Below, piece by piece: positions 5,059 through 63,793 of a stretch of 64,000 bases of DNA (position 1 is its first letter; every line of letters starts with the position of its first letter). The position numbers and the translations under genes are program-made. The stretch lies in contig NZ_AP026070.1 of assembly GCF_024363255.1 (NCBI RefSeq), positions 2,294,001 to 2,358,000 on the forward strand, in the 5' to 3' direction. The DNA is from Shewanella sp. NFH-SH190041. GTDB lineage: Bacteria > Pseudomonadota > Gammaproteobacteria > Enterobacterales > Shewanellaceae. The notes beneath the pieces are model-generated. The model was not told the origin of the DNA and did not search any database. It saw only the letters and a program-made list of their open reading frames with translations.

Positions 5059-6888
5059 CTACCCCCGCAATGCGTCATGTATTGTTTGTGCCATTTCTAT
5101 GCTGATCCCCGGCACTTTTGCCAATTCAGCTACACTGGCATTTTTCACTTGTTGTAAACCGCCCATAAACTGTAACAGTGCGCGGCGCCGTTTCGGCCCG
5201 ACCCCAGGAATGGACTCTAACGTCGATGTATTACGGGTTTTCTGACGCCGGTTACGATGGCCTGTTATCGCAAAGCGGTGGGATTCATCCCGAATATGCT
5301 GGATCAGATGCAATGCTTCAGAATCATCCTCCAATGCAAAACTGGCTTCAGTTTCACCATAGATCAAGGTTTCCAACCCTGGCTTACGGCTCTCACCTTT
5401 TGCCACCCCTATCAAGATGGGGGCCTTATCCAATGTCACAAACTTTTCATCGACAATGTTTTGAGCCATACGCAACTGACCCAACCCACCATCAATAAAT
5501 AAAATATCCGGAATTTTGGCCTCATTAGTCACTTTATCGAACCGACGACTAATGGCCTGCGCCATCGCCGCATAATCATCCCCAGGGGTAATACCACTGA
5601 TATTAAAGCGGCGATATTCAGCTTTATCCGGCCCTTCTCGGTTAAATACCACACAGGAAGCAACCGTACTCTCACCCATGGTGTGACTGATATCAAAGCA
5701 TTCCATGCGACTGATTGGTTGGCTGAGCTCCAACACCTCTTCCAAGGCGACAAAACGTTGTTCTACCGTATTCTTATGGGACAAATGACTTGAAACAGCA
5801 TTCACCGCATTCGTCACCGCCAAACGTAAAAATTGCGCCCGCTGACCCCGCACCCGAGTTTTAATACTGACTTTTTTGTCCAATGCTTGGCTGATAGCGG
5901 CCTGCAGCGCGGGCAATTCATCAAACTCATGGCTGATTAAAATCTCTTTTGGCAAACTGCGTTGCGCTGTAGTATTTAAATAAAACTGCAGCATAAAGGC
6001 ACGTAGCACTTCATCAAGCTCTGTTTGGGCCGGAATTTTGGGATAATAACTGCGACTTCCAAAAATTTTACCATCTCGGATAAATAGCAGATGAAAACAG
6101 GCCAACCCAGAGGCATAATCCACCCCGATAACATCCATATCTTCCGTATCTGAAGTGACCTCATTTTGCTCTGCAACCCGTCTTAATGCCTGTATTTGAT
6201 CTCGAAATGCCGCGGCCTGTTCATATTCCATATCATCTGCAGCCCGGGTCATTTTATCCACCAGCGCCGCAATCACTTGCTGATCCTTGCCGCGCAAAAA
6301 CATAGCGGCTAGCCGCACCTGCTGTTGATAATCAGCATCAGAAATTTTGCCAACACAAGGGGCGCTGCAGCGACCAATTTGGTACTGCAAACAGGGACGA
6401 GAACGAGATTTATAGTACAGATCGGTACATTGACGGATAGGGAACAACTTCTGCATCAGGTGCAAACTTTCACGCACAGCCCCACCATTCGGGTAAGGGC
6501 CAAAATATTGGCCTTTTTCCCGCTTAGGGCCCCGGTGATAGGCCAACCTGGGATGACGATGATCACTGAGCAGAATAAAAGGGTAAGATTTATCATCACG
6601 CAACAGCACATTATATTTAGGCATGTAGCGTTTGATGTAGTCATTTTCCAAAATTAACGCGTCAGTTTCACTGTGAGTCAGTGTCACATCAATCTGGGCG
6701 ATATGTGAAACCAAGGCTTGGGTTTTCACATTGGGCAGATTTTTGCGAAAATAAGAACTAAGACGTTTTTTGAGATCTTTCGCTTTACCGACATAAATCA
6801 CCACAGCGTCAGCATCATACATACGATAGACGCCGGGTGAAGCGGGTACGGTTTTTAAAAAAGCACTGGCATTAAATGCGGTCGGCAT
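5059..6888 (-). CDS. uvrC: excinuclease ABC subunit UvrC
   Basis: The nuclease of nucleotide excision repair, which incises on both sides of a lesion marked by UvrA/UvrB. The sequence has an N-terminal GIY-YIG domain ([20 protein letters not shown]), a cysteine motif ([13 protein letters not shown]), a UVR motif near residue 205, the UvrC RNase H-like endonuclease core ([18 protein letters not shown]) and C-terminal helix-hairpin-helix motifs ([27 protein letters not shown]). I start at ATG 6888 (609 residues, as in E. coli); a TTG 24 bp upstream would overlap the leader region and lacks family support. It follows uvrY by 27 bp and is probably cotranscribed with it. Confidence 0.95.
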
Positions 6889-60595: not shown

Positions 60596-60958
60596 TTAAG
60601 GCGTTTTTGCCTGTTCTTGTAATTTGTAGACCCTAAGAGGCCAAGCATCAATCTGTAGCCCGTGAGTTTCTATCACATTGACCAATCGTTTCCAGTGTCG
60701 TTCATCCGCAGGAGTTCGCAGTATCAAAACAATTCCGGCACGTTGCCCGGTCATCACAGAGTAATGCAAAGACTGCCCCACCGCTTCCGCCCACTTGCGA
60801 GCGAAATCATACTCAATGGCATGGGTATTAGTTAAGCAATCAACCCGGGTCCTATCCTGCAGCGCATGTTCAACCTCTCCATTACAGTAAAGCTCAACCC
60901 AATCAGCCTCTGACGCAGCAGCAACGGGAAACGTAAGCAGCAGTAAAATCCATTTCAT
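60596..60958 (-). CDS. exported protein with a PD-(D/E)xK-like nuclease pattern
   Basis: 120 residues with a signal peptide (KWILLLLTFPVAAAS). The mature part has RVDCLTNTHAIEYDFARKWAEAVGQSLHYS: Asp, then Glu-x-Asp and Lys, then QxxxY, the order of a restriction-endonuclease fold of the RecB/VRR type. A short homologous family exists in other prophages as uncharacterised proteins. GAGAGG precedes the ATG. Function inferred only from the motif. Confidence 0.6.
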   Translation of the reverse strand: MKWILLLLTFPVAAASEADWVELYCNGEVEHALQDRTRVDCLTNTHAIEYDFARKWAEAVGQSLHYSVMTGQRAGIVLILRTPADERHWKRLVNVIETHGLQIDAWPLRVYKLQEQAKTP

Positions 60959-60967
60959 GCGAACCTC

Positions 60968-61216
60968 TCAATTCATCGACAGCAGACAATAACCAGGCTC
61001 GATACCAAACTGACCTCCATCCACTTTATGAGTGACCACGCGCCGACACTCATCATCCCCAATCCGGCACCCTGATTGGCGGTCAAACGGATAGATTATT
61101 AGTAGATCACCGACTTTATAATTTCGGTCATCACGGCGAATCTCGGCGGTTTTGGTGCGATTTCTGACGGCGTTATACAACTCTGGGTCTATCTTCAAAT
61201 GATGCTCAGTTGCCAT
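60968..61216 (-). CDS. DUF3850 protein
   Basis: 82 residues: HHLKIDPELYNAVRNRTKTAEIRRDDRNYKVGDLLIIYPFD (in part) is the DUF3850 pattern, an ASCH/PUA-like domain that probably binds RNA or modified nucleotides. Common in phages; role unknown. CGGAAAC stands before the ATG, as before the next gene upstream, an internal duplicate of the ribosome-site region. Confidence 0.85.
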   Translation of the reverse strand: MATEHHLKIDPELYNAVRNRTKTAEIRRDDRNYKVGDLLIIYPFDRQSGCRIGDDECRRVVTHKVDGGQFGIEPGYCLLSMN

Positions 61217-61234: not shown

Positions 61235-61777
61235 TTAGGCCGCGACCGCTGACCGTTCAGATTTTAATTGTTCAATGAATGGTAGCCAGCACTCATTCCA
61301 GAAGTCTTGGCAACTTGGCGATGGTTTTGTGTCTCGTGGCATCTCATCGTATTCATCAAAAATATCGTCAAAACTATCGTGCATGTAGACCATGTTTGTG
61401 TATGTGTTCTTGTCTGTTGATGCGTAGGCAAGTTCTGGCATGCTCTCCCAAGCCTCTCTGGCAGTATGCTTATCAATTTGACCAATCCGGCGGCGCTCAA
61501 TGATTGCCTGCTTGATAGCTGTCTCACAACCCGACTGATCCAACACAAGAAAGTCATCACACAGCTTATTCATTGCGTACTCAAATTCGCAGTTGCTCAG
61601 GAACTCTTTGGGGTCGTAACCGCAGTGACTCCAGTGGTGATCAAAGCTGCCATAATCCGAGCGAATCATCACTGAGACTGACTGCTCGCCGCAGATCAGC
61701 ACAATATCGGCCCAGCCTTCGAATCCTTCCTGTCTGACGTGGTACAACTCAGCTTGTTTTTTAGTTATTTTTACCAT
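61235..61777 (-). CDS. phage protein of unknown function
   Basis: 180 residues, acidic, with GFEGWADIVLICGEQSVSVMIRSDYGSFDHHWSHCGYDPKEFL (in part) suggesting a beta-rich N-terminal domain and a helical, acidic C-terminal half. Resembles conserved hypothetical proteins of gammaproteobacterial phages, but I can name no family. GGAAAC ribosome site upstream. Confidence 0.7.
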   Translation of the reverse strand: MVKITKKQAELYHVRQEGFEGWADIVLICGEQSVSVMIRSDYGSFDHHWSHCGYDPKEFLSNCEFEYAMNKLCDDFLVLDQSGCETAIKQAIIERRRIGQIDKHTAREAWESMPELAYASTDKNTYTNMVYMHDSFDDIFDEYDEMPRDTKPSPSCQDFWNECWLPFIEQLKSERSAVAA

Positions 61778-61793: not shown

Positions 61794-62492
61794 TTAAGCC
61801 GCCTGGCTATTCAATTCTTTGCCGTTTGATTCAAACACGGCACGAGCAAAACCACGCGGGGTGGCACTGCGGATATTCTTTGTTTTAAGTGATTTGCCAC
61901 CCAGCATCTTATGCTGACGGCTATAACCGTCCTCTGGCTTCACCTCTTTTACCGGCGGCATCACAAAGCCGCCACCAGTCCAGAGGCAGGTTTTTTTCGG
62001 GTAGGCATCCCTTGGCGCGATGTAATCAGGCCACCGCGGACGCCGGTCATTCTCTGGAAGGTAGCCGCCATACCGATAAGGCTCAAAAATATGGTTTGGT
62101 TTGCCACAGTAGGTGCTGAAAGTGCTGATCGGGTTTTCAATAAAGTAAGGCGCGCCGCTCCATTCTGCGATTTCCTTACTGGTTGCGAACAAATCCAGTG
62201 ACAATGCCAGCGCCCTTGGTCCTTTTTTCAGGAAATGGGCCGCACCACTCACAGCGACATTAGTGCATTCAGGGAATGCCCCCACAAATGCAATCCGCCC
62301 GACGGTTTCCGCCGGCGGCAACCAACCACTGCGCAAATCAGCCCCGACTTTGAACAAGCCTGGGCGCTTGTTATCAGGCGTTATCCCCGTCGGGTGCTGA
62401 ATATCCACGATGTAACAGGTATACCCCGCCTCAAGCCACGGCTGTGCCATGATGCCGGTCAAGTCGAATAAAAAAATCGCAACGTCTTTCAC
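61794..62492 (-). CDS. compact DNA cytosine methyltransferase-like protein
   Basis: 232 residues. An N-terminal AdoMet-fold strand (IFLFDLTGIMAQPWLEAGYTCYIVDIQHPTG, in part) is followed by FPECTNVAVSG, resembling the PC(Q) loop of C5-cytosine methyltransferases, and IENPIS, their ENP motif. The target-recognition domain and final motifs seem missing or very short. It may be a phage methylase or an inactive relative. GTG start at 62492; ribosome site weak. It diverges from the plus-strand gene at 62643. Confidence 0.6.
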   Translation of the reverse strand: MKDVAIFLFDLTGIMAQPWLEAGYTCYIVDIQHPTGITPDNKRPGLFKVGADLRSGWLPPAETVGRIAFVGAFPECTNVAVSGAAHFLKKGPRALALSLDLFATSKEIAEWSGAPYFIENPISTFSTYCGKPNHIFEPYRYGGYLPENDRRPRWPDYIAPRDAYPKKTCLWTGGGFVMPPVKEVKPEDGYSRQHKMLGGKSLKTKNIRSATPRGFARAVFESNGKELNSQAA

Positions 62493-62528
62493 TTAAGCCC
62501 CATCCATCTGAATTTTAATAAACTAGAT

Positions 62529-62617
62529 AAATCATCTTTGATTTGATTGTTAAATCATCTTTGATTTACATCGAGCTTAAATCATCTTTGATTTAATTTG
62601 CAAATCATTTTTGATTT
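62529..62617. promoter_or_regulatory. four palindromic operators in the divergent switch region
   Basis: AAATCATCTTTGATTT occurs at 62529-62544, 62552-62567 and 62579-62594, and AAATCATTTTTGATTT at 62602-62617. Each is a 6-bp inverted repeat (AAATCA/TGATTT) around 4 bp; copy 3 extends to 8-bp arms. Starts are 23, 27 and 23 bp apart, so sites fall on similar helix faces. They fill the 150-bp gap between the divergent genes at 62492 and 62643. They look like binding sites of one dimeric repressor. Confidence 0.8.
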
Positions 62618-62642
62618 ATTTACAGTCCAATGGAATTAACTG

Positions 62643-62909
62643 ATGAATACAGCTATGCCAAAAAAAACCAACGAACACACCCATTACGCTAATGCCGCCC
62701 GTGACTTCCTAAAAGCTAGACGCGATGAATTAGGCGGCAATAAGGCGTTGTATCGCGAGCTGTATGGGGCGGAGCCGACCGACAACGAAAACCAGCGGCT
62801 AATCAATCTACTGAACCGCGGCAACCTGTCAGCGGAATTTCTGGGGCTGTGCGCTGATAGACTCAAGCTGGGTGACACCACCCTTAAGCAGCTTTTCCGC
62901 ACAAGATGA
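62643..62909 (+). CDS. DUF6471-like small DNA-binding protein
   Basis: 88 residues; the only plus-strand phage gene in the window. The C-terminal part NENQRLINLLNRGNLSAEFLGLCADRLKLGDTTLKQL (in part) resembles DUF6471 proteins, which have a lambda-repressor-like helix-turn-helix look. It lies directly downstream of four palindromic operators and converges on the Q-like gene. An autoregulated switch protein is a natural guess; an internal ATG at codon 5 is a second possible start. Confidence 0.65.
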   Translation: MNTAMPKKTNEHTHYANAARDFLKARRDELGGNKALYRELYGAEPTDNENQRLINLLNRGNLSAEFLGLCADRLKLGDTTLKQLFRTR

Positions 62910-62923
62910 TCACCGAGCTGGCA

Positions 62924-63256
62924 TCACACCAGCTCCATCTCAGCCAGTCTTAGCCAATACTCATATGTCTTACGCTCGCGGAACCCGGCCAGCGTCCAGA
63001 CACCTTGGCAGATATACCGGACTCTCACGGCTCGGCGGCATTGTTCACAGAGGCGCTGAATCTCTTTATCGATAGCTCGAATATGCTCTGGGGCATCAAA
63101 ATCGTCATCGAATAAGTGAGCATCTGAGTTGGTCATGACCTCGCCGAGCTTGTCACAAGCACTGCGCTTTGCGTACCCCTGCCCCATTTCCTGCCAGCGC
63201 CAGTAATTACCCCACGCCCTCAACTCGCGGCGGACTTCTTTGATAGTTCTAGGCAT
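62924..63256 (-). CDS. late-gene antiterminator Q-like protein
   Basis: 110 residues, basic. IKEVRRELRAWGNYWRWQEMGQGYAKRSA at the start and CRRAVRVRYICQGVWTLAGFRERKTYEYWLRLAEMELV at the end (in parts), with a sigma region 4-like HTH, resemble the phage antitermination Q family. Its position before the late genes on the same strand fits. Overlaps the XRE gene by 8 bp. Confidence 0.65.
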   Translation of the reverse strand: MPRTIKEVRRELRAWGNYWRWQEMGQGYAKRSACDKLGEVMTNSDAHLFDDDFDAPEHIRAIDKEIQRLCEQCRRAVRVRYICQGVWTLAGFRERKTYEYWLRLAEMELV

Positions 63257-63458
63257 TGAGCACCATCCGCTTTAGTTCTTCTGATGGCATCTTAAACACC
63301 AAGTCGCAAATGGTTTCCAGATCGTCATAACCTACAGCGTGAGTACCAGATTCCCAGCGCCTGTAAGTGCTTTGGTCAACACCATAAACTTCTGCAACTT
63401 CGGTTTGAGTAAACCCTCGCAGCTTCCGACCAGTCTTTAGAATTTTGCCACCGATCAT
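63249..63458 (-). CDS. XRE-family helix-turn-helix regulator
   Basis: 69 residues from ATG 63458. A single HTH domain: GGKILKTGRKLRGFTQTEVAEVYGVDQSTYRRWESGTHAVGYDDLETICDL (in part). Too small for a full CI-type repressor, so a Cro-like or accessory regulator is more likely. A GTG six codons upstream is an alternative start. Confidence 0.8.
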   Translation of the reverse strand: MIGGKILKTGRKLRGFTQTEVAEVYGVDQSTYRRWESGTHAVGYDDLETICDLVFKMPSEELKRMVLNA

Positions 63459-63475
63459 TTTCTTCAACCCTCTCA

Positions 63476-63793
63476 CTACGCAGCCCTCTGCACCAACTGC
63501 CCAATAACCTCGATTGCCCGCCCTGAGTTAATCAACGCTGCATCTACCCGGTAAACAATCCAGCCCAAACTCATTGCCTCACTGTACTTTTCGAGGTCTT
63601 TAGTAAAGCCCGAGCCTCTTGTATGCCGGCCACCTGACCATGCCCCGCCTTCAACTTCCACAGCCAACATCAGTTCTGGCCAAGCAAAGTCGAATCGCCA
63701 TTTCCTAACAGCATGAAACCTGTGTTCCCGCACCGGCTCTGGCAACTTCAAAGCCCTGATCTGTAGAGCTAAAGTTTCCTCAAGCGCGCTCAT
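63476..63793 (-). CDS. phage endonuclease, DUF559/Vsr-like PD-(D/E)xK fold
   Basis: 105 residues: HRFHAVRKWRFDFAWPELMLAVEVEGGAW, then HTRGSGFTKDLEKYSEAMSLGWIVYRV (in parts). D in FDFAW and E-x-E in AVEVEGG with a later Lys form a restriction-endonuclease-like core as in DUF559/Vsr-type nucleases that in phages take part in recombination or junction cutting. Starts ATG 63793. Confidence 0.8.
   Translation of the reverse strand: MSALEETLALQIRALKLPEPVREHRFHAVRKWRFDFAWPELMLAVEVEGGAWSGGRHTRGSGFTKDLEKYSEAMSLGWIVYRVDAALINSGRAIEVIGQLVQRAA

Follow-up and report, generated by a model that had tools for sequence, protein, structure and literature searches.

An 88-residue predicted autorepressor and its palindrome array in a Shewanella prophage, with relatives on plasmids and viral contigs

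We analysed a stretch of 64,000 nucleotides from Shewanella sp. NFH-SH190041 (contig NZ_AP026070.1, positions 2,294,001 to 2,358,000; hereafter the window), in which a lambda-like prophage carries a short plus-strand gene behind an array of four AAATCA-N4-TGATTT palindromes. The array fills the gap at 62493-62642 between this gene (62643-62909, plus strand), which encodes an 88-residue protein, and a minus-strand gene (61794-62492). Homologues, a structure model and the conservation of upstream sites make it likely that the protein is an autorepressor which also represses the divergent operon. The array and its surroundings consist of the following features.

62529-62544: palindrome 1, AAATCATCTTTGATTT, closest to the divergent operon
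62552-62567: palindrome 2, AAATCATCTTTGATTT
62579-62594: palindrome 3, AAATCATCTTTGATTT
62598-62626, plus strand: predicted sigma70-type promoter of the 88-residue protein gene, TTGCAA-17-TACAGT, matching the consensus at 8 of 12 positions; the spacer contains palindrome 4
62602-62617: palindrome 4, AAATCATTTTTGATTT, within the spacer of the plus-strand gene's predicted promoter
62643-62909, plus strand: gene of the 88-residue predicted DNA-binding autorepressor

A preliminary description of this DNA, made from the sequence alone, had reported four evenly spaced palindromes behind a lone plus-strand gene. The palindromes start at 62529, 62552, 62579 and 62602 (array span 62529-62617, three AAATCATCTTTGATTT and one AAATCATTTTTGATTT), which confirms the intervals of 23, 27 and 23 nt given there; the even spacing is approximate, with two 23-nt pairs set 27 nt apart. 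The 88-residue reading frame is indeed alone on its strand, as the genes assigned around it lie on the minus strand. The exact pattern AAATCA-N4-TGATTT occurs four times in the whole 4.37-Mb genome, each time in the array, while a reversed control pattern was found 0 times. If up to two mismatches are allowed, the window holds 12 matches against 5.24 expected, a count reached by 1 of 100 shuffles; only the four array copies are free of mismatches and the other eight are near background. The relaxed core ATCA-N4-TGAT is present seven times in the window (1.57 expected), four times in the array and three times as isolated copies. Among the 369 genomes of the class, no genome besides the window's own contained the strict two-site pattern, and a literature search returned no paper containing any of six 16-mers of the motif.

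The strongest evidence for an operator comes from relatives of the gene. Within 260 nt upstream of the family gene, ATCA-N4-TGAT was present in all 21 core loci, which comprise prophage, viral contig and plasmid sequences. Two to four exact copies were found in 20 of them and a single copy in L039, giving 55 sites in total, whereas randomly placed 260-bp control segments from the same loci (only about 3.2 kb of sequence for L022, L070 and L072) never contained two. The core set leaves out further copies of the window (L001-L005, L021, L032-L034, L048, L071), near-copies of retained loci or larger stretches around them (L015, L017, L040, L041, L023, L049, L064, L073, L086-L088) and 12 diverged paralogues (L074-L085); both members of the pairs L010/L012 and L037/L038 were kept although each pair is closely related. 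The count thus refers to 21 loci, upstream DNA having been seen for a minority of the 63 family proteins. The earlier suggestion of an operator-like array is supported by these results, and the array belongs with the adjacent gene. A reverse search of IMG/VR for two-site AAATCA arrays yielded five stretches. Two are adjacent to family genes, namely L023, which is the contig of L011, and L025, whose family member the protein-based scan had missed; L024 and L027 fall in one coding region and L026 is a tandem repeat. For ATATCA arrays, two of 20 stretches lay beside family genes (L061, which is new, and L064, the contig of L022). The array by itself is not diagnostic, yet the gene-operator link is real. 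In 16 whole records, 33 of 45 WWATCA-N4-TGATWW matches were located at the family gene (reversed control: 4), so the family protein looks like a local regulator without a wide regulon.

One result limits the generality of this link. None of the 12 diverged paralogues, which come from two genomes (five from G866, seven from G896), carries ATCA-N4-TGAT upstream, and the expectation that the motif would accompany homologous genes therefore holds for the core family and fails for the paralogues, to which we do not extend the operator claim. A pair of other palindromes upstream of each of two of the 12 (L076 and L077) outscored all 60 mononucleotide shuffles, which we do not claim to be general; L077 has two CCTCATATATGAGG palindromes upstream of its paralogue. 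The palindromes might also be iterons or partition sites whose position near the gene is incidental, since related tandem arrays with a 24-bp period occur in viral contigs where no family gene was found (L026, L052, L059, L062, L067). The place upstream of one gene, kept in every core locus, the register with predicted promoters and the irregular spacing all argue against this explanation, which we regard as very improbable. The arrays of L052, L059, L062 and L067 are made of ATATCAAAAATGATAT or its reverse complement, and the 24-bp tandem repeats at L026:12480-12691 include AAATCAAATTTGATTT.

The position of the sites relative to predicted promoters points towards repression. In 12 of the 21 loci, TANNNT lies exactly 17 nt past the TTGATW-like arm of the palindrome nearest to the gene (the arm reads TTGATT or TTGATA in 11 loci and GTGATT in L020), while each of 20 other spacings tested gave at most two loci. 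In four cases (the window, L013, L016 and L019) the 17-nt spacer of a predicted promoter contains the nearest palindrome instead; neither arrangement fits cleanly in L014, L037, L038, L039 and L072. In 13 of the 21 loci, the site closest to the promoter has TTTT as its central N4. A generic promoter scan with a threshold of 9 of 12 consensus bases did not report the window's plus-strand promoter. On the operon side, candidate promoters overlap a palindrome in several loci, for example TTGGAA-17-TATAGT in L009 and TTTGCA-17-TATAAT in L025, and the window's own candidate is weak. It is conceivable, if rather unlikely, that the protein binds the sites as proposed here but activates the divergent operon, or activates and represses it depending on dose like some restriction-modification (R-M) controller proteins. 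Such controllers are the nearest structural matches of the modelled protein and are described as both activating and repressing in the available part of one report (PMC3115060); several sites with variable spacing would let one of them serve as an activator site, and the less clear operon-side promoters leave room for activation there. The nearest site, overlapping the predicted -35 element of the family gene in 12 loci and lying in the spacer in four, is better suited to occlusion.

We modelled the structure of the 88-residue protein and searched for its relatives. The model shows five helices at a mean pLDDT (predicted local distance difference test) of 91.7; a first model, built from 13 sequences, had reached 74.3 and gave no useful Foldseek match. 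Translation may begin at 62643 or, alternatively, at 62655, the first position of the (M/L/V)PKK common to most members; residues N55, N58 and R59 are conserved. Matches to known families were scarce: Pfam gave none at E<=1 and no S24 domain, NCBIfam none for the nine proteins of the first homologue search, and PHROGs a single weak one (phrog_7066, E 0.0044). A sequence search against solved structures returned nothing significant (three chance-level rows, E 0.48-1.1), and a second returned none. Among the 50,697 phage records of INPHARED, tblastn with the window protein matched none (E<=0.01), nor did the family protein of L025 (E<=0.1). The first search of 5.8 billion proteins found nine proteins including the window's own, and a search with a 23-row alignment extended this to 63, again including it, with named members from Vibrio, Shewanella, Pseudoalteromonas, Aeromonas, Marinomonas, Colwellia and Cocleimonas; alignment A5 excludes P0058 and P0063. 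A Pfam scan of 23 members gave at best weak matches, to 10 families. Two plasmid searches matched 12 and 18 records (19 distinct, of which 15 were examined). Family matches are rare in genomes, with 2 of 369 in the class, 2 of 345 in the order and 2 of 60 in the genus, own genome included, and 4 of 345 in the family of G139, centre genome included; IMG/VR scans with two single distant members returned no relative. The core family is probably a new repressor family, which would function in the manner of Aca, C or KorA/ArdK proteins and is an established member of none of these groups.

The palindromes fall into types that vary together with the protein. In 12 loci the half-sites are of the AAATCA type (AA in 63 of 70) and in eight of the ATATCA type (AT in 32 of 38). 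The proteins of all eight ATATCA loci carry a two-residue insertion after a conserved LN, which is missing from the proteins of the 12 AAATCA loci; the insertion is present in the L039 protein as well, although the one site of that locus is of the CAATCA type. As the site label changes only about twice on the tree, corresponding to roughly two independent events, this correlation is suggestive rather than strong. It nevertheless bears on whether the palindromes are bound by another protein, for instance a regulator of the host or the XRE protein encoded at 63249-63476, with the 88-residue protein gene being only a target. The XRE protein has a clear helix-turn-helix domain (HTH_3, 2.3e-10). 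A global regulator of the host is disfavoured by the uniqueness of the array in the genome, the palindrome form follows the family-protein subgroup, and no regulator besides the family gene was noticed as common to the loci in a non-systematic reading of feature tables. Binding by another protein is hence improbable in our judgement. The identical 16-mer AAATCATTTTTGATTT precedes family genes in 7 of 21 loci, namely the window prophage, one plasmid each from Vibrio and Shewanella, two contigs from sequenced bacteria and two viral contigs. A resident prophage repressor could therefore act on an incoming element, and we tentatively raise the idea, more doubtful than probable, that the operator is a code shared across elements. 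The prophage repressor could then keep an arriving phage or plasmid from expressing its modification or transfer operon just when it is needed (repressor-based exclusion), with AAATCA and ATATCA as separate immunity groups. Recognition of operators across elements, if it occurs, would mean mutual regulation of prophages and plasmids.

The genes around the array place it within the prophage. The four minus-strand genes facing the 88-residue protein gene are presumed to form one operon, and two further genes lie behind it.

60596-60958, minus strand: 120-residue protein, no PHROG match; fourth gene of the presumed divergent operon
60968-61216, minus strand: ASCH/DUF3850 domain protein; third gene
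61235-61777, minus strand: phrog_13202 protein, function not known; second gene
61794-62492, minus strand: DNA methyltransferase, phrog_757 (E 2.6e-67); first gene
62924-63256, minus strand: phrog_27007 protein, very weak match to the transcriptional activator family phrog_248 (E 0.035)
63249-63476, minus strand: XRE protein

Read along the minus strand in the direction of falling coordinates, the order within the window is phrog_503, XRE, phrog_27007, the plus-strand gene with its array, phrog_757, phrog_13202, ASCH/DUF3850 and the 120-residue protein, followed by a phrog_27892 protein of unknown function in the expected place of the holin, an endolysin, two overlapping Rz-like spanins and later the large terminase subunit; an integrase lies on the far side of the prophage (L006:2326-3636). 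From this order, the array and its gene head an accessory cassette that precedes the lysis genes. The phrog_27007 protein occupies the expected place of a late-gene regulator. An annotated DUF3850 protein is also found in the divergent cluster of L016 and L017, and in viral contig L025 a 49%-identical relative of the 120-residue protein is encoded immediately downstream of the family gene (2406-2759, same strand), so these two genes may travel together.

The preliminary description had suggested that the array may be a lysogeny switch with a new repressor class, and multiple identical palindromes between divergent genes do resemble phage operators. This would make the 88-residue protein the immunity repressor. 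The prophage has a separate CI/Cro-like pair about 4 kb from the array, consisting of a CI-like helix-turn-helix and Peptidase S24 protein (L005:14830-15519) and a divergent Cro-like HTH_3 protein (L005:14483-14743). The pair lies beyond the window end, where the minus-strand order runs from the Cro-like gene to CII-like, O-like replication and DnaC-like genes, and by eye the CI-Cro intergenic stretch lacks ATCA-N4-TGAT. With the early-promoter position, next to a divergent cro and replication genes, taken by this pair, and with relatives facing regulator and tra genes in 6 of 15 plasmid records, we reject the lysogeny switch as very improbable.

An autorepressor that also controls a divergent operon fits the neighbours of the relatives. 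Of the 15 plasmid records, 14 have the family gene in divergent orientation, as in the window. The divergent neighbours include a C-5 methylase (L009), a D12 adenine methylase (L011), a phosphoadenosine-phosphosulfate (PAPS)-reductase-like protein (phrog_424) in L018, L036 and L061 and DndB in L086 (the larger stretch around L070). L087, which is the larger stretch around L072, has a PAPS-reductase-like gene after three small genes in its divergent cluster, and an HNH protein is the second divergent gene of L010. Regulator genes of the PAS/helix-turn-helix type are neighbours in L014, L015 and L038 and of the LuxR type in L037, in each case followed by a TraY-domain gene, traA, traL, traE, traK and traB, while L039 and L041 have a LuxR-type helix-turn-helix gene before tra genes. 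The six plasmids with this arrangement were typed as conjugative (four) or non-mobilizable (two). Small divergent genes are present in L016 and L017, one annotated as ArdR but without a Pfam family match, and small hypothetical genes in L013. L064 has a small gene and then one that by eye looks like a single-stranded-DNA-binding protein gene. No family match was obtained for the first divergent gene of L019, L035, L016 (Pfam only) or L025 (PHROGs only), and L020 has no close divergent gene. What these operons appear to have in common is their use during entry or transfer, as would suit control by a repressor that is missing when the element arrives and turns the operon off afterwards.

Based on these findings, we propose that the protein is a small repressor of predicted lambda-repressor-like helix-turn-helix fold which probably binds each palindrome as a dimer. 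It would limit its own synthesis, as the gene-side sites overlap its own predicted promoter, and the remaining sites towards the divergent operon would hold that operon down in the prophage. The protein lacks a sensor domain and would therefore act through its concentration alone. Upon entry into a repressor-free cell both promoters would fire in a burst, the modification genes would be made early, and repressor made after entry would then shut the divergent operon off. By analogy, an entry-timing role of the family may be expected. In R-M systems a controller protein sets the timing and its loss shortens the delay of endonuclease production (PMC8053105, in the part available), and plasmid leading regions have been reported to hold anti-defence genes (PMC11541004, likewise in part). 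A family of hypothetical proteins would thereby gain a testable operator and function, and ATCA-N4-TGAT arrays beside a short divergent gene could provide a DNA hook with which to locate accessory operons, possibly of counter-defence, on phages and plasmids.

Several known systems invite comparison. With respect to the R-M controllers C.Esp1396I and C.BclI, the family differs in its other divergent neighbours, which are tra, PAPS-reductase-like and DndB genes rather than methyltransferases; C.Esp1396I has 14% identity to the 88-residue protein in a structural alignment, and no endonuclease partner was identified, a scan of seven window proteins giving no more than a weak match to DUF559 (E 0.054). 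Aca proteins are likewise small helix-turn-helix proteins of mobile elements which autorepress an accessory operon through inverted repeats inside the core promoter (PMC9410906, accessible portion); the window family shares an inverted repeat inside its own predicted core promoter. Aca genes, according to the same portion, lie downstream in the acr operon, whereas the gene described here is divergent, and PF08965 (Aca2/YdiL-like) was not among the 10 families matched by the 23 members. KorA/ArdK are repressors of plasmids whose operators are inverted or direct repeats (PMC9723621, as far as available). Kinship with them was rejected, as neither the solved-structure searches nor the Pfam scan of 23 members gave a significant match, PF16509 (KORA) not being among the 10 families; a KORA-domain gene (6448-6819) two genes' width from the family gene of L037 means that both coexist. 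From a CI/Cro-type switch the family is set apart by the missing S24 domain and by the CI/Cro-like pair located elsewhere in the prophage.

The protein had further been called DUF6471-like, and a distant profile similarity is what remains of this assignment. DUF6471 (PF20075) matched neither the window protein at E<=1 (cut-off 26.8 bits) nor any protein of its genome, while it gave weak matches in 3 of 23 family members (best E 0.0027) and a profile-profile probability of 83.6% over 71 columns (hhalign), so that DUF6471 is at most a distant relative. None of seven DUF6471 loci examined (10 fetched) has ATCA-N4-TGAT in the 400 nt upstream, and a literature search found no paper containing 'DUF6471'. 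By eye, the DUF6471 genes of L042-L044 have repeated TATGGTGATG / TATGATGATAT-like stretches upstream, and members of that family may therefore also be autoregulators.
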